DNA of 33,843 bases, taken from positions 90,673 through 124,515 of the forward strand of contig NZ_HG005290.1 of the NCBI RefSeq assembly GCF_000455285.1. The letters are read 5' to 3'. This document shows, piece by piece, positions 6 through 5,471 of the stretch. The notes beneath the pieces were generated by a model, which saw nothing but the letters and a program-made list of their open reading frames with translations, ran no database searches and was not told the origin of the DNA. The position numbers and the translations under genes were made by a program. How positions within the stretch are numbered: the stretch's first letter is position 1; the number at the start of each line of letters is the position of its first letter. This DNA comes from Candidatus Stoquefichus massiliensis AP9 (lineage in GTDB: Bacteria > Bacillota_I > Bacilli_A > Erysipelotrichales > Coprobacillaceae).

Positions 6-353
6 TTATTCAAAATCAATATTATCAACTTCAATATCAATATGTTTCACATTGACATCTGTCATCTGTTTAATTGAAATTGCTATTTTCTCTTGAATTT
101 CTTTTGTAATTTGAGATACATTGACTCCATATTTGATACGAACATGAATGTTTACATAGATTTCGTTATCTTTGATAGAACAAGATACAACAGCTTTTGT
201 TCCTGGGATTTGTATTCCCTTAGATGTATCTAAAGAAACATTTTTCATTTCATTAACTGTTCTTTTTGTAATTTCATCAAAGACTTGAACATTCATCAAT
301 ATTTTACCATTCACAGTACCTTGATCAAATGTATAATATTCATTATGTGCCAT
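6..353 (-). CDS. yqhY: Asp23/Gls24 family envelope-stress protein (YqhY-like)
   Basis: A complete 115-residue Asp23/Gls24-type protein with no signal peptide or membrane segment. The core has the alternating beta/alpha pattern of the family (VKVSIKYGVNV-like strand around residues 65-80, then an amphipathic helix). In Firmicutes the YqhY branch sits beside accBC or spoIIIA and just before nusB, and is linked to control of acetyl-CoA carboxylase and fatty acid synthesis. That role is family knowledge, not visible here. The position after efp and spoIIIAH matches the Bacillus order efp-spoIIIA-accBC-yqhY-nusB, but accBC is absent. The stop codon overlaps an ATG at 4-6 that would start the next gene, perhaps nusB, of which only two codons lie in the window. 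The start follows AGAGGT with six bases spacing. Confidence 0.85.
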   Translation of the reverse strand: MAHNEYYTFDQGTVNGKILMNVQVFDEITKRTVNEMKNVSLDTSKGIQIPGTKAVVSCSIKDNEIYVNIHVRIKYGVNVSQITKEIQEKIAISIKQMTDVNVKHIDIEVDNIDFE

Positions 354-408: not shown

Positions 409-867
409 TTATTCACTAATAAATTTTACTTCTACCTGATAATTATCTCCTACAAGATTTAAAATTTCTTTAATAACTTTTGAAGCATCACTTTGTGTTG
501 CATCTTTTTTCATGACTGTAACTTTGATTGTTTGATTTTCAATTTCAACATAGGCATCTGAATAGCCTAATTCTTTAATCTTTGCAACAATACTCTTTTC
601 TTTCTCTCCTATATTTTTTGTTTCACTAATTGTTTCTAAAGCTTCATTAATAGAATCGGATGTACTTGATTCTTTAGCAATAATTTCATTGTTCTTAGAA
701 ATAATATCTTCTCTTTTTTTGTTAAGTTGTTCTTGTAATTGCTGAATTGTTGTTTGTGTACTTGTAACAACTTCCTCATTGGTACTTGGTGGCAACATAA
801 TATAATAAATAGATAAGACAAGTATCAAACTAAAAAGTGTTAAAAAAGTAAAAGCTTGTTTATTCAT
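409..867 (-). CDS. spoIIIAH: Stage III sporulation protein AH (SpoIIIAH)
   Basis: A 152-residue protein with one N-terminal membrane segment (about residues 7-25), a Gln/Glu/Lys-rich helical stalk (about 38-95) and a compact C-terminal domain (about 95-150). This is the layout of SpoIIIAH, the mother-cell protein whose YscJ/FliF-like domain binds forespore SpoIIQ to form the channel between the two cells. The Bacillus protein is about 218 residues, so this copy is short, mainly in the stalk. Its place between efp and yqhY is exactly where Bacillus has spoIIIAA-AH, but only AH is here. The gene starts after AAAGGAG and has its own promoter with sigma-E-like elements. I am fairly sure of the family from position, topology and the C-terminal pattern, though no search was run. 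Confidence 0.82.
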   Translation of the reverse strand: MNKQAFTFLTLFSLILVLSIYYIMLPPSTNEEVVTSTQTTIQQLQEQLNKKREDIISKNNEIIAKESSTSDSINEALETISETKNIGEKEKSIVAKIKELGYSDAYVEIENQTIKVTVMKKDATQSDASKVIKEILNLVGDNYQVEVKFISE

Positions 868-891
868 ATCCCATTCTCCTTTTTCTTATAT

Positions 892-920
892 ACTATATGT
901 TTCAACAAGCATAAATATGA
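892..920 (-). promoter_or_regulatory. Putative sigma-E (mother-cell) promoter of spoIIIAH
   Basis: The minus strand reads TCATATT, 14 bases, CATATAGT. This fits the Bacillus sigma-E pattern (about kmATATT, 14-15 bases, CATACAmT) with two mismatches in the -10 box. It lies 25 bases before the spoIIIAH start, and its -35 box overlaps the end of the efp terminator. No comparable sigma-A pair is obvious in the same gap. spoIIIA genes are known sigma-E targets in Bacillus. Confidence 0.55.
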
Positions 921-940
921 AAAAAAGAGCTTACGCTCTT
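919..940 (-). terminator. Intrinsic terminator of efp
   Basis: The stem AAGAGC/GCTCTT with loop GTAA is followed by a run of seven T on the minus strand. The stem contains the last efp codons and its stop codon. It should isolate efp from spoIIIAH. Confidence 0.85.
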
Positions 941-1488
941 CCTTGATATTTCCCATCTTCAGTGTTAACAATAACTTTTTCTCCTTCACTAATAAATAAA
1001 GGAACTTTAATTTGAAATCCTGTTTCAATTGTCGCATTTTTTGTTGCTCCAGTTGCTGTATCACCTTTAACAGCTGGTTCAGTTTCAGTAATTGTAAAAG
1101 CAACATTAACAGGCAATTGTACGCCTAAAACTTCACTTTCAAAACTTGTTACTTCTACATCATCAGAAGGTTTTAAAAAATTCATTTCCCATTTTAAATG
1201 ATCAGCTGGAATTTCAATTTGTTCATAAGTTTCATTATCCATAAAAACTAACATATCAGCTGCATCATATAAATATTGCATTTTTCTCTTTTCGATATGT
1301 GCTTTAGCTACCTTTTCACTATTTCCAAAAGTAACTTCTGTTGTTGAACCTGTTCTCATATTTTTCATTTTCACTCTAATATTTGCAGCTGCACGGGCTG
1401 TTTTATTATGTGAATATTCTAAGACAACATATAAATTACCATCATATTGAAAAGTCATACCGGGTCTTAAATCACCAACATTAATCAT
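931..1488 (-). CDS. efp: Translation elongation factor P
   Basis: A full-length 185-residue EF-P, which relieves ribosome stalling at polyproline stretches. The three beta-barrel domains are recognisable: the KOW-like domain I (1-63), the central OB domain (about 66-127) and the C-terminal domain with the motif GATKNATIETG followed by VPLFISEGE. The unusual part is the domain I loop that carries the post-translational modification: where Bacillus has PGKG, this protein has TARA, placing Arg32 at the modified position. Arg here is known from rhamnosylated EF-P in some Proteobacteria. I see no modification enzyme in the window. efp is a single-gene unit with a good promoter and a terminator overlapping its stop. 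The start follows AAAGGAGAG. Confidence 0.97.
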   Translation of the reverse strand: MINVGDLRPGMTFQYDGNLYVVLEYSHNKTARAAANIRVKMKNMRTGSTTEVTFGNSEKVAKAHIEKRKMQYLYDAADMLVFMDNETYEQIEIPADHLKWEMNFLKPSDDVEVTSFESEVLGVQLPVNVAFTITETEPAVKGDTATGATKNATIETGFQIKVPLFISEGEKVIVNTEDGKYQGRA

Positions 1489-1732: not shown

Positions 1733-2113
1733 TTATCCCTCCAAATATTCAAATTTTGTTACTTCAAAGGTTTCAGTTTGAATCTGTAATAGAAATGAAT
1801 AATTCATATCTTCAGATGTTAATGTTGTGGTGATTTCATAATAAGTTCCTAAATCATCTATCATACTACTCAAAGAATAGTGATCATCCATAAAATTATC
1901 ACTTAACAAAATATCATTTTGCATGGATTCAACATAATATTTTGTAAGAAGAATTTCTAAATTTTTTTGTTTCATTAATAAATCTATCTGTTGATAATGA
2001 TTTGTGTTCTGATTTATCATAAATAAACCTACTGTCAGTGAAAAAGTCATCACCATAAAAGTAACAAGAACAACTTGCAAAACAGAGCCTTTATTGTTCA
2101 ATAATTTCATCAT
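1733..2113 (-). CDS. comGG: Competence pseudopilin-like protein ComGG
   Basis: The last pilin-like gene of the comG operon, 126 residues. It starts with LLNNKGS followed by a long hydrophobic helix (residues about 9-32), the form of a type IV prepilin-like leader. The canonical Glu at position +5 after the Gly is replaced (GSVLQ), as is common for ComGG-type minor pilins. The remainder is a poorly conserved globular domain. Assignment to ComGG rests mainly on order after comGF and on the N-terminal pattern. In Bacillus it is a minor component of the DNA-uptake pseudopilus. It overlaps the end of comGF by 23 bases. The start chosen is ATG at 2113 following GCAGGAG; ATG at 2110 is equally possible. 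Confidence 0.65.
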   Translation of the reverse strand: MMKLLNNKGSVLQVVLVTFMVMTFSLTVGLFMINQNTNHYQQIDLLMKQKNLEILLTKYYVESMQNDILLSDNFMDDHYSLSSMIDDLGTYYEITTTLTSEDMNYSFLLQIQTETFEVTKFEYLEG

Positions 2114-2543
2114 CAATCTCCTGCTTCTCTTTCACATAAGTTAACATAAAACGGTAATCCTTTTTATCACGTGAAATACTCATATAAATAAAGTCATTCT
2201 CTATTTCAAATGATAAATCATCAATATCGGTTAACATTATTTCAAATCCAGGAGTCTTCACTAATCTATGATTATCAAGTTCAAATGTGAATGTTTCACC
2301 ATTACGATTGATATATTCATAAGTTTGACCCACTTCTTCATAACATGTTCCTAGAACTTCCTGACTCACCTGTTTAGCAGCAATATAGATATCCTCATTT
2401 GCAACTGTTATATTTTGAGTATGCCCAATGAGACGATACATACCAAATAAACTTGATACTATCATTAGTGTAATCCCAAGTGAGAGTAATACTTCTACGA
2501 GTGTAAAGCCATCTCTGCTATCTCGACAAAATCTTCTGAATAT
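2091..2543 (-). CDS. comGF: Competence minor pilin ComGF (non-standard start codon)
   Basis: A ComGF-type minor pseudopilin for DNA uptake. The open frame begins after a TGA at 2550-2552. A clear class III prepilin motif, RDGFTLVEVLLSLGI, is encoded from about 2516, but no ATG, GTG or TTG precedes it in frame. The first ATG (2463-2465) lies inside the hydrophobic helix and would remove the cleavage site. The most reasonable start is ATA at 2543 (or ATC at 2546), 7 bases after an AAGGTG ribosome-binding site, giving 150 residues. The soluble part (about residues 45-150) carries the beta-rich pattern of the family (GETFTFELDNHRLV). The 5' end overlaps comGE by 49 bases, so translational coupling is likely. 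A simple ATG-only prediction gives a 124-residue protein ending at the same place. Confidence 0.7.
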   Translation of the reverse strand: MFRRFCRDSRDGFTLVEVLLSLGITLMIVSSLFGMYRLIGHTQNITVANEDIYIAAKQVSQEVLGTCYEEVGQTYEYINRNGETFTFELDNHRLVKTPGFEIMLTDIDDLSFEIENDFIYMSISRDKKDYRFMLTYVKEKQEIDDEIIEQ

Positions 2544-2707
2544 GATATTTCACCTTCTTTCACTAATATCTGTTCGTAAAAACGATTAATCTTTACTTCC
2601 TGAGAAAAAACAGTGGTCATTAATCCTGTGTATAAAACGAGAACACTTATAAAGATCTCAAAAGCTAATAAACTTTCTATAAGTGTTGATCCTTTTCTAT
2701 TCAACAT
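2495..2707 (-). CDS. comGE: Competence minor pilin ComGE
   Basis: A 70-residue minor pseudopilin: MLNRKGSTLIESLLAFEIFI is a textbook prepilin leader, with cleavage after Gly and Glu at mature position 5, followed by a hydrophobic helix to about residue 30. The rest is too divergent to recognise. It follows comGD with an overlap of 11 bases and overlaps comGF downstream. The start chosen is ATG at 2707; a GTG at 2719 would add four residues but leaves no room for a ribosome-binding site (GGGAG is directly adjacent). It is probably processed by the ComC prepilin peptidase, which is not encoded here. Confidence 0.75.
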   Translation of the reverse strand: MLNRKGSTLIESLLAFEIFISVLVLYTGLMTTVFSQEVKINRFYEQILVKEGEISYSEDFVEIAEMALHS

Positions 2708-3092
2708 AAAAGCACCCACTCCCTACCTGATATACAAAATGATAATTCTTGTTTTGAGTATGGAGAATAACTGTCTTTGCCCCTTTAATATTTCCAAAAT
2801 CATTAAATGTCATTTGATGATTATCGAAATAAAATTGTTGATTGAGTTCATAATCTCGTTGCCTGTTAAGACATTGATAAGAGACTAATGATCCATTGAA
2901 CTTTAATGTTACTGTTTGTTTATAAGTCATTGCAGTCAACTTTGCCTCATTTAGAAAACTGACAATTTCTTTAATTTGAACATCAGCACTTTTTTGTGGC
3001 ATATGTAATGTCATTGAAATCATAGATAACATACATATAATAAATAAAACAAAAAGTGTTTCAATTAACGTAAAACCTTTATTAGTCAGCAT
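2697..3092 (-). CDS. comGD: Competence minor pilin ComGD
   Basis: A 131-residue pseudopilin beginning MLTNKGFTLIETLFVLFII, with the G-F-T-L-I-E cleavage motif and a hydrophobic helix to about residue 28. A GspH/ComGD-like body follows, with the helix SFLNEAKLTAMTYKQ and C-terminal beta strands. It helps form the pseudopilus that pulls DNA through the cell wall. The start at 3092 overlaps the comGC stop (ATGCTGACTAA), which indicates coupling. The frame stays open to an ATG at 3173, but those extra residues would sit before the prepilin leader and are not expected. The leader is short, as is normal for this family. Confidence 0.85.
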   Translation of the reverse strand: MLTNKGFTLIETLFVLFIICMLSMISMTLHMPQKSADVQIKEIVSFLNEAKLTAMTYKQTVTLKFNGSLVSYQCLNRQRDYELNQQFYFDNHQMTFNDFGNIKGAKTVILHTQNKNYHFVYQVGSGCFYVE

Positions 3093-3384
3093 ACGCCTGT
3101 CCATCACTAATTGAAATAGATTTTCCATTTGGACATACCCCTTGTTTTTCAGTAAGATATGGGTGAGTCCCACTAGTTAGATCAGAAATACTTATTGGTA
3201 ATTCACCATTTTCAATTTCATATAATAAAATCTGTGAATTGACTACTTCTATTTGTGCTTCACATCCTTTATTTTTTACAACTGTGTTTTTTGAAGTAAC
3301 ATTTGGTATAACAAGAAGTAGGATTACAAGTATAACACTTATACAAAAAATCATTTCAATTAAAGTAAACCCATTTTTATTCAT
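3082..3384 (-). CDS. comGC: Competence major pseudopilin ComGC
   Basis: The major pseudopilin of the DNA-uptake pilus, 100 residues. The N-terminus MNKNGFTLIEMIFCISVILV gives a five-residue leader, cleavage after Gly5, methylated Phe6 and Glu10, then a long hydrophobic helix. The body continues with KGCEAQIEVVNSQILLYEIENGELP, the typical alpha-1 C-terminal half, and two Cys (in GCEAQ and GVCPNG) that could form the stabilising disulphide known in ComGC. A GGAGG lies upstream at normal spacing. It sits between the comGB assembly-platform gene and the minor pilins in the standard operon order. Confidence 0.95.
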   Translation of the reverse strand: MNKNGFTLIEMIFCISVILVILLLVIPNVTSKNTVVKNKGCEAQIEVVNSQILLYEIENGELPISISDLTSGTHPYLTEKQGVCPNGKSISISDGQAYAD

Positions 3385-3405
3385 TCTTTCATTCCTCCCT
3401 TTCAG

Positions 3406-4404
3406 TTATATATCTGATATAACATTCATCATTGGTATGATAATTGACACATAAATTGTTATAACAAATATAGCAACAAATCCATAAATTGATGGTACAA
3501 AATATTTAAGAAACTGAGAAATCCATAAATCAATTTGTTCATAAGTTAAATCAATATAATGTGATAACGATTGTTTTTGATTCGGATTCTTCATATACAT
3601 TTGAAAAAAACTCAAAAATAACTGATCGAAATATTCAAAGTCTTCTAAAATATCTTCTAGTGCTTCTCCATCATGCAATCGATTATTTATTTCATAAAGA
3701 ACTATCTTTAAATCACTCTCTGTCATCTGTTCATTTAATAGAGCAATGATACTTGTACTATCTATCTCTTCATTAAGTAATTCATGATAATAGACAGCAA
3801 ATTTTAATGAAAAATATTTCTGTAAACAGACTTTAAATATAGGTAGCTTTAAATACCATTCAATGACCTGATATGACTTTTTTTGTAGAGCATAGAACAA
3901 TCTTACTAATAAAAATATAACACTTACACCTATCCCAATAACAAATATAGGCATTGTATAAAAGAAAAGAAACATTAATTGTGTCATGAAACTTTTATGT
4001 ATCTGAAATGAATCAAATAACTGATTAACATTAGGCAATAAAACAAAGACAACAAATATAGAAAAGAGTAATAGAAAAGCCATCAAAATAAGAGGATAAG
4101 TTAATTTGGATTTTAATTGATTTTGATATTCTTGTTTCATTACACAAATATCTAAACTTTTTTGAATCGCTTCTGATAAGCAATTCTTATTTTTGAAAAA
4201 ATAAAAGTACTCCAAAAACAATTTAGGAAAGTCACTATATGATATAACAACTTCAAGCGATTCTCCATTTCTTAATTTATCAATCATCTTCTCAATCATT
4301 GGATAATGCATAATGTTCTGACAAATTTTGAGCGATTCTTCAACACTATATCCTGATTCCAATAACGTATACAAATTTTTCAAAAACATATAATCTTTAT
4401 TCAC
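3406..4404 (-). CDS. comGB: Competence pseudopilus assembly platform protein ComGB
   Basis: A 332-residue inner-membrane platform protein of the type II secretion F / PilC family. It anchors the ATPase ComGA and recruits pilins. Two homologous halves are visible, each starting with a GESLEVVI- or GEALEDIL-type motif (about residues 47-55 and 246-254). Hydrophobic segments lie at about 106-130, 150-175 and 305-330, the usual three-helix topology. The gene begins with GTG at 4404 following AGGAG at nine bases spacing and overlaps comGA by eight bases. Length is normal for the family (about 320-350). Confidence 0.93.
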   Translation of the reverse strand: MNKDYMFLKNLYTLLESGYSVEESLKICQNIMHYPMIEKMIDKLRNGESLEVVISYSDFPKLFLEYFYFFKNKNCLSEAIQKSLDICVMKQEYQNQLKSKLTYPLILMAFLLLFSIFVVFVLLPNVNQLFDSFQIHKSFMTQLMFLFFYTMPIFVIGIGVSVIFLLVRLFYALQKKSYQVIEWYLKLPIFKVCLQKYFSLKFAVYYHELLNEEIDSTSIIALLNEQMTESDLKIVLYEINNRLHDGEALEDILEDFEYFDQLFLSFFQMYMKNPNQKQSLSHYIDLTYEQIDLWISQFLKYFVPSIYGFVAIFVITIYVSIIIPMMNVISDI

Positions 4405-5383
4405 TCTTACACTCTCCTAAAAATAATTGTTGATCAAATCCTTGATTGATTAATTTTTGTGCTTGTTTTGCAAATGTCATATACGAAGTAACATTCTTTT
4501 GAAAATAAGATAGAATCTGTTGTCTATTCATTAATTCAGATAATACTATTACTCTTTGGTTAGCTTCATCATACTTCATTTTTTGAGACATTGCTCCAAT
4601 CATTACATCACAAATATCCGTTTCATTAATTTCTAAATTCATTAAACGTTTCAATGATAAAATAGCATTACTAGCATGAATTGTTGTTAAAACAAGATGT
4701 CCAGTCAAAGCACATGTAATAGCTATTTTAGCTGTGTCTACATCACGAATTTCCCCTATCATAATAACATCTGGATCATGTCTTAAAATCTGTCTAAGTG
4801 TATCATGATATGTTATTCCTAACTTTTCATTAAGTTCAATTTGTAAACAATTTTCTAAATGCATTTCTATCGGATCTTCGATAGTAATAATATTTTTGTT
4901 GTTATGCTGAATGATTTCTTTAAGAATTGTATATAATGTTGTAGACTTTCCTGATCCAGTGGCTCCACTAATTAAAAAAAGACCACTTTCCTGTTTGCTT
5001 AACCATGTTAGATACTGACATACATCCTCCTGATATGTAAGTTCCTGAATTGTACCAATTTCATGATTATTTAAAATTCTTATAACAATACTTTCAAATT
5101 CCTGTGATGGCAAATAAGATATTCTTAGAAAATACTCCTTTTGATGAATATGTATTGAAAAATCTCCTGTTTGTGGAAGCAAACGATAATTTGTATTAAT
5201 CAAAGATCTATACTTAATATAATTCATTAATTTGCTTCCCACATCGTTATCCATACAGTCATACTTTTCTAATTGTCCAAAAATTCTAAAGCGAATTGTT
5301 AAATTTTCCTTTAAAATCATGTGAATATCAGTTGCTCTTTTCTTTAATGCTCGATAAATCATCTTATCAAATAGTTCATCCAT
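4397..5383 (-). CDS. comGA: Competence traffic ATPase ComGA
   Basis: A 328-residue GspE/PilB-type secretion ATPase that powers pseudopilus assembly for DNA uptake. Motifs visible: Walker A GATGSGKST (140-148), Asp box ITIEDP (166-171), Walker B DVIMIGEIRD (205-214) and His box TGHLVLTTIH (227-236). The N-terminal domain includes KRATDIHM (about 15-22). It lacks the long N-terminal region of GspE/PilB and the four-cysteine zinc motif, as expected for ComGA. The frame stays open a further 23 codons upstream, but ATG at 5383 has AGGAGGG at five bases and is the clear start. It is the first gene of the operon comGA-GB-GC-GD-GE-GF-GG plus a small membrane protein. The promoter is not obvious in the AT-rich 57 bases before it. 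Confidence 0.95.
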   Translation of the reverse strand: MDELFDKMIYRALKKRATDIHMILKENLTIRFRIFGQLEKYDCMDNDVGSKLMNYIKYRSLINTNYRLLPQTGDFSIHIHQKEYFLRISYLPSQEFESIVIRILNNHEIGTIQELTYQEDVCQYLTWLSKQESGLFLISGATGSGKSTTLYTILKEIIQHNNKNIITIEDPIEMHLENCLQIELNEKLGITYHDTLRQILRHDPDVIMIGEIRDVDTAKIAITCALTGHLVLTTIHASNAILSLKRLMNLEINETDICDVMIGAMSQKMKYDEANQRVIVLSELMNRQQILSYFQKNVTSYMTFAKQAQKLINQGFDQQLFLGECKSE

Positions 5384-5440
5384 AATTACCCTCCTACTAT
5401 ATATATACGCAAAAAAAATCAATTTTTCTTTTTTTATACA

Positions 5441-5471
5441 AAAAAAAGTCATATTTTTTTATTATGACTTT
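5441..5471 (-). terminator. Intrinsic terminator between the metallo-hydrolase gene and comGA
   Basis: The nine-pair stem AAAGTCATA/TATGACTTT is followed by T residues on the minus strand and overlaps the hydrolase stop codon. The stem is AT-rich, so it may be leaky, but it should separate the hydrolase from the comG operon. Confidence 0.65.

Follow-up and report, generated by a model that had tools for sequence, protein, structure and literature searches.

The eight SpoIIIA proteins belong to a machine that joins the mother cell to the spore developing in it, with SpoIIQ as a partner. The role of the SpoIIQ-SpoIIIAH pair is in dispute, with a channel, a zipper and a localisation hub all under discussion. 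In C. difficile, spoIIIAH mutants stop early in engulfment, whereas SpoIIIAH is still produced in a spoIIIAA mutant, 10 to 20% of whose cells finish engulfment (PMC6934232). In B. subtilis, loss of the direct contact between SpoIIQ and SpoIIIAH hardly reduces sporulation, according to a 2025 study (PMC12720343). No spoIIIA homologue was found in Erysipelotrichia by Davis 2013, although some members sporulate and SpoIIQ is apparently present, and the operon was proposed to be non-essential or replaced in this class (PMC3749518). Two members of the Erysipelotrichia were also described as lacking most spoIIIA products (PMC7924749), and RF39 was reported to have spoIIQ and spoIIAH (apparently spoIIIAH) as additional genes in comparison with Erysipelotrichales (PMC10868615).

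We analyzed a stretch of 33,843 nucleotides (the window; G000:C7:90673-124515) in the genome of Candidatus Stoquefichus massiliensis AP9 (G000; 3.5 Mb, 99.4% complete), together with the genomes of 59 relatives. The region from 409 to 940 of the window takes in spoIIIAH, its promoter, and the terminator of efp (Table 1). In Bacillus, the accBC genes come after the spoIIIA genes at the corresponding locus. The intergenic gaps in the window are 63 bases between efp and spoIIIAH and 55 bases between spoIIIAH and yqhY, so that neither spoIIIAA-AG nor accBC can fit between efp and yqhY. An earlier note on this DNA had described the three genes as adjacent, with no space for AA-AG, and the AH reading frame as intact, and both descriptions are correct.

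Table 1. Features of the spoIIIAH locus and position of spoIIQ (window positions unless a contig is named)
Feature	Position	Strand	Description
yqhY (Asp23 family)	6..353	-	downstream ancestral neighbour; PF03780
spoIIIAH	409..867	-	intact ORF, 152 aa, ATG start
spoIIIAH ribosome-binding site	876..883	-	AAAAGGAG, ~8 bases before ATG, read directly
sigma-E-like promoter of spoIIIAH	892..920	-	-35 TCATATT 920-914, 14-base spacer, -10 CATATAGT 899-892
intrinsic terminator of efp	921..944	-	AAGAGC-GTAA-GCTCTT-TTTTT
efp	931..1488	-	upstream ancestral neighbour; NCBIfam TIGR00038 E 2e-71
spoIIQ	G000:C3:130516-131151		212 aa, directly downstream of spoIID; 3tuf_B E 2e-33

The gene occupies the ancestral position between efp and yqhY, and this arrangement extends beyond the window. 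Within the same family, most loci have the order efp-spoIIIAH-yqhY, while a second family keeps spoIIIAH-yqhY behind another gene, with a similar promoter pattern still upstream; one or the other arrangement is seen in nearly all of the related loci, as is the direct neighbourhood of yqhY. No extra gene common to the spoIIIAH loci was found among the related loci compared. The efp genes of the Longibaculum/Massilimicrobiota loci (L019, L020, L021, L025, and L045-L049) are just 66 to 68% identical to that of the window, with one partial match (L017) at 85%, while their SpoIIIAH and YqhY proteins are 78 to 87% and 79 to 91% identical; other genera show the reverse, with efp at 84 to 90% and SpoIIIAH at 68 to 73%. 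This suggests that efp may have been swapped in place in the Longibaculum/Massilimicrobiota lineage. Directly upstream of efp, the window (1733-5452) carries a competence pseudopilus (comG-like) operon encoding T2SSE, T2SSF, N-methylation, and ComGF proteins.

The open reading frame is a true spoIIIAH gene. Its product matches the Pfam domain PF12685 (SpoIIIAH) with an E value of 6e-11 (43.1 bits against a curated cut-off of 30.6), as do 30/30 of its SpoIIIAH relatives at E <= 0.01, and a profile search with the alignment of 30 relatives (A1) finds the solved B. subtilis SpoIIIAH chains (3uz0/3tuf) at E values of 8e-16 and 3e-13. The closest named relative is the protein of Longibaculum muris (87% identity), followed by those of Massilimicrobiota and other Erysipelotrichaceae. 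Over 113 residues, the AlphaFold2 model (pLDDT 81) superposes on 3uz0_C at 1.4 A (Z 16.5). PrgK (Z 10.2) and EscJ (Z 9.8) come next among the structural matches, ahead of further ring proteins of type III and flagellar systems, FliF among them. The earlier note had staked its SpoIIIAH call on a YscJ/FliF-like fold, and the predicted structure agrees, with a single N-terminal transmembrane (TM) helix (residues 3-24), a linker (residues 25-39), and a helical segment followed by a mixed alpha/beta ring-building domain (residues 40-152). The linker (window 751-795) falls short of its B. subtilis counterpart by about 65 residues and differs in length between families. Second PF12685 matches in the relatives, mostly to model positions 1-85 in frames of 180 to 500 aa, were set aside as generic N-terminal TM or coiled-coil matches.

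The other seven SpoIIIA proteins are missing. Profile searches of G000 and the 59 relatives, in each of which B. subtilis scored above the cut-off as a positive control, found SpoIIIAA ATPase, SpoIIIAB, SpoIIIAC/AD, SpoIIIAE, and SpoIIIAF above their curated cut-offs in 0/60 genomes, and the SpoIIIAG ring in 0/60 as well, with weak matches only. The closed genomes G004, G034, and G035 have SpoIIIAH and SpoIIQ but lack all seven, which means that missing sequence cannot account for the absence. Since neither the 99.4% complete G000 nor the 59 relatives gave a match above the cut-off, the seven genes were, as far as profiles can tell, lost, not moved. A weak TIGR02830 match on contig C18 of G000 (E 0.012; 15.9 bits against a cut-off of 147.7) was taken as chance or another ATPase. 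The SpoIIIAA matches in relatives, also below the cut-off and mostly short stretches in frames of 350 to 460 aa, were judged in the same way, and comparable matches occur in E. coli and other controls.

The genome also encodes SpoIIQ, for which a search had been proposed in the earlier note. The adjoining SpoIID matches TIGR02870 (E 5e-79), and SpoIIQ itself matches NF053738 at 9e-48 yet under its cut-off. SpoIIQ is present in 28/60 genomes (E below 1e-20) and SpoIIIAH in 26/60 (A1 profile). Both proteins occur together in 25 genomes, SpoIIIAH alone in 1, SpoIIQ alone in 3, and neither in 31 (Fisher 1.5e-12), and SpoIIIAH also co-occurs with SpoIVA (1.5e-9), which SpoIIQ tracks too; these P values overstate the evidence because related genomes are counted as independent. 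The discordant genomes are drafts in 140 to 240 contigs, three of them (G002, G006, and G012) with SpoIIQ and SpoIVA in which SpoIIIAH was not detected and one (G029) with SpoIIIAH and no SpoIIQ, and real gene loss is possible in these. A 1.7-Mb genome of the sister family (G057; L150, L136) has SpoIIIAH and SpoIIQ with no SpoIVA match. The LytM histidine position of SpoIIQ is Asn in 26/28 and Ser in 2/28 of the proteins, so SpoIIQ looks catalytically degenerate, as it does in B. subtilis (Ser119). SpoIVA, SpoIID, and SpoIVFB-like sporulation genes are present. About 0.7 to 2.9 kb past the window end on the same contig (L070:705-2832) lies minD, followed by genes for an M23 protein resembling SpoIVFA and a metalloprotease resembling SpoIVFB; NCBIfam names only MinD, and the other two were assigned by visual inspection of motifs and gene order.

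The promoter of spoIIIAH had been proposed in the earlier note to fit the mother-cell factor sigma-E, and comparison with relatives favours this assignment. With a consensus derived from the window promoter itself and the textbook sigma-E consensus, a score of 12/15 or more is reached by 90% of 29 distinct spoIIIAH upstream regions but by 5.6% of Markov shuffles, and a score of 13 or more by 79% and 0.7%, respectively. The ATA-type -35 and the CATA-type -10 lie at the place proposed in the window. Most of these regions keep them, 13 to 14 bases apart (the sigma-E class allowing about 13 to 15) and 19 to 29 bases from the ATG, although the sequence between the boxes diverges. In L005, L027, and L028, the boxes escaped the scripted consensus, but CATA boxes are readable by eye. 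A sigma-A reading of the same region (TTCATA-18-TATAGT, 9/12) is weaker, and CATA is retained where TATAnT is not. A CATA-type -10 also precedes most spoIVA and spoIID genes, and for one spoIVA gene of the order (L073) the promoter is TCATATT-N14-CATACAGT. The two-part consensus scores these genes only mildly higher than shuffles (means of 11.1 and 11.6 against 10.2 and 10.6), which reflects a different -35, while the CATA-type -10 recurs. Upstream of the spoIIQ genes, GTATA-N14-GGAAACACTA or a variant of it resembles a sigma-F promoter and scores at least 14 in 46% of cases against 6% of shuffles. With a sigma-E-like motif before spoIIIAH and a sigma-F-like motif before spoIIQ, the split between mother-cell and forespore expression appears to have been kept. 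The efp gene has its own sigma-A-like promoter (TTTACA-17-TATAAT, 1549-1521), and its terminator, whose stem is conserved in related loci, overlaps the last efp codons and stops exactly at the start of the spoIIIAH -35, an arrangement that should isolate spoIIIAH from efp transcription.

The spoIIIAH gene is under purifying selection (dN/dS of 0.03 to 0.18 among congeners and neighbouring genera), and the pattern of conservation would be compatible with binding of SpoIIQ. In a gapless structural alignment (window residue + 65 = B. subtilis number) with contacts taken from PMC12720343, the SpoIIQ-contact positions of SpoIIIAH carry 3.03 bits against 2.40 for the remaining ectodomain (P 0.012). 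V147 and F149, which correspond to the intermolecular strand positions 212 and 214 of B. subtilis, are invariant. On the side of SpoIIQ, the B. subtilis interface residue Leu109, described as invariant (PMC12720343), is Leu in 24/28 proteins and Met or Phe in the others. Within the order, no part of SpoIIIAH is as conserved as its TM helix (window 790-867, residues 1-26), which carries 3.78 bits where the ectodomain has about 2.46, even though all known SpoIIIA membrane partners are missing. A helix more conserved than the ectodomain suggests a membrane partner, which a pure zipper would not need.

SpoIIQ is thus the one component of the SpoIIIA-SpoIIQ secretion or feeding complex found besides SpoIIIAH, with AA, AB-AF, and AG all missing. 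Because the SpoIIIAA ATPase, the AC/AD/AE membrane core, and the AG ring are all absent, the pair does not amount to the published secretion channel, and the system should not be classed as an A-Q channel. We consider it probable that SpoIIQ and SpoIIIAH instead form a trans-septal zipper or scaffold without an export apparatus. As the last surviving gene of the spoIIIA operon, spoIIIAH would have stayed in place once AA-AG and accBC were lost, and would be transcribed alone in the mother cell from its sigma-E promoter, shielded from efp by the terminator. The protein would be anchored in the mother-cell membrane, with its ring-building domain facing the intermembrane space and binding SpoIIQ produced in the forespore, and the pair would keep the engulfing membranes together and position other proteins. 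The C. difficile phenotypes, in which SpoIIIAH is needed early and SpoIIIAA less so, fit such a role. Against a zipper stands the mildness of the contact mutants in B. subtilis: as the contact barely matters there (PMC12720343), it need not be the feature under selection. Of the two options in the earlier note, the reduced system holds up, as an order-wide reduction and not a peculiarity of this genome, although a zipper or scaffold is likelier than the channel that the note named; the relocation of the seven genes finds no profile match above the cut-off in 60 genomes. That AA-AG lie elsewhere and were missed is extremely improbable: fast-evolving proteins can escape profile searches and the short AC/AD models are weak, but SpoIIIAH, with its single TM helix, was detected at E values of 1e-8 to 1e-16, and AE and AA, which are larger, gave nothing above the cut-off in the 60 genomes, closed ones included. 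That spoIIIAH is a relic, or was co-opted for a role outside sporulation, is very unlikely too; strong purifying selection, a conserved promoter, and co-occurrence with SpoIIQ and SpoIVA all speak against it.

Two readings would keep a transport function for the pair. Rings of SpoIIIAH and SpoIIQ might form an open conduit without the ATPase or the AC/AD/AE core, lined or gated by the SpoIIIAH TM helix. The predicted fold is that of the ring-building domain of EscJ, PrgK, and FliF, the TM helix stands out in conservation, and the short linker (38 residues, compared with 103 by B. subtilis numbering) would bring the ring near the membrane. We nevertheless regard such a conduit as quite improbable: models of SpoIIQ-SpoIIIAH rings lack corroboration even for B. 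subtilis, cryo-tomography revealed no such channel (both discussed in PMC12720343), and one TM helix per subunit makes a weak pore candidate. Alternatively, unrelated membrane proteins may have taken the roles of AA-AG, leaving SpoIIIAH and SpoIIQ to span the intermembrane space within an analogous channel. Alternative means were proposed by Davis 2013 (PMC3749518), the conserved TM helix hints at a partner, and our searches covered known families only, but no candidate emerged and the locus offers no additional shared gene, so that this reading, too, is unlikely. The broader proposition that a trans-septal complex of two proteins, SpoIIIAH and SpoIIQ, underlies endospore formation in Erysipelotrichales, whether as a minimal conduit or together with new membrane partners in place of SpoIIIAA-AG, is put forward tentatively and seems to us rather doubtful; if true, the pair and not the secretion channel would be the irreducible core.

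Heavy loss of sporulation genes in Erysipelotrichaceae was reportedly described by Galperin in 2022, and spoIIIAH in this family may already have been tabulated there. The loss of spoIIIA, which the earlier note had implied to be novel, was published in 2013 (PMC3749518); what appears to be new is that SpoIIIAH alone survives, in its place and together with SpoIIQ. Judged from the sequences, the two proteins are kept, in place and under selection, in Erysipelotrichales genomes with sporulation genes, and the published picture is revised to that extent. If this is confirmed, the view of Erysipelotrichia as devoid of any spoIIIA gene will be corrected, and the role of the pair becomes testable in these species without the remaining complex. 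The order also provides a natural experiment opposite to the B. subtilis contact study, in that SpoIIIAH and SpoIIQ are retained together under purifying selection in the absence of the export components.

Compared with the A-Q complex of B. subtilis, the system shares the SpoIIIAH fold, a SpoIIQ with a degenerate LytM site encoded beside spoIID, the efp and yqhY flanks, and the mother-cell and forespore promoter types. It differs in the absence of 7/8 SpoIIIA proteins and of accBC from the locus, in the shortened SpoIIIAH linker, and in a SpoIIQ of 212 aa without the C-terminal tail. Part of spoIIIA has likewise been lost lineage-wide in Planococcaceae/Lysinibacillus, where AA, AB, AD, and AF are missing and others are listed as kept, whereas here AH alone remains (PMC3533761, PMC7924749). 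In C. difficile, SpoIIIAH and SpoIIQ matter more than SpoIIIAA for engulfment, and AG-AH have their own internal promoter, which we liken to the lone spoIIIAH promoter described here; unlike the present system, C. difficile has a full spoIIIA operon and a SpoIIQ with an intact zinc site (PMC4982068, PMC6934232). In contrast to the scoring that set RF39 apart (PMC10868615), SpoIIIAH and SpoIIQ are both found here in Erysipelotrichales.
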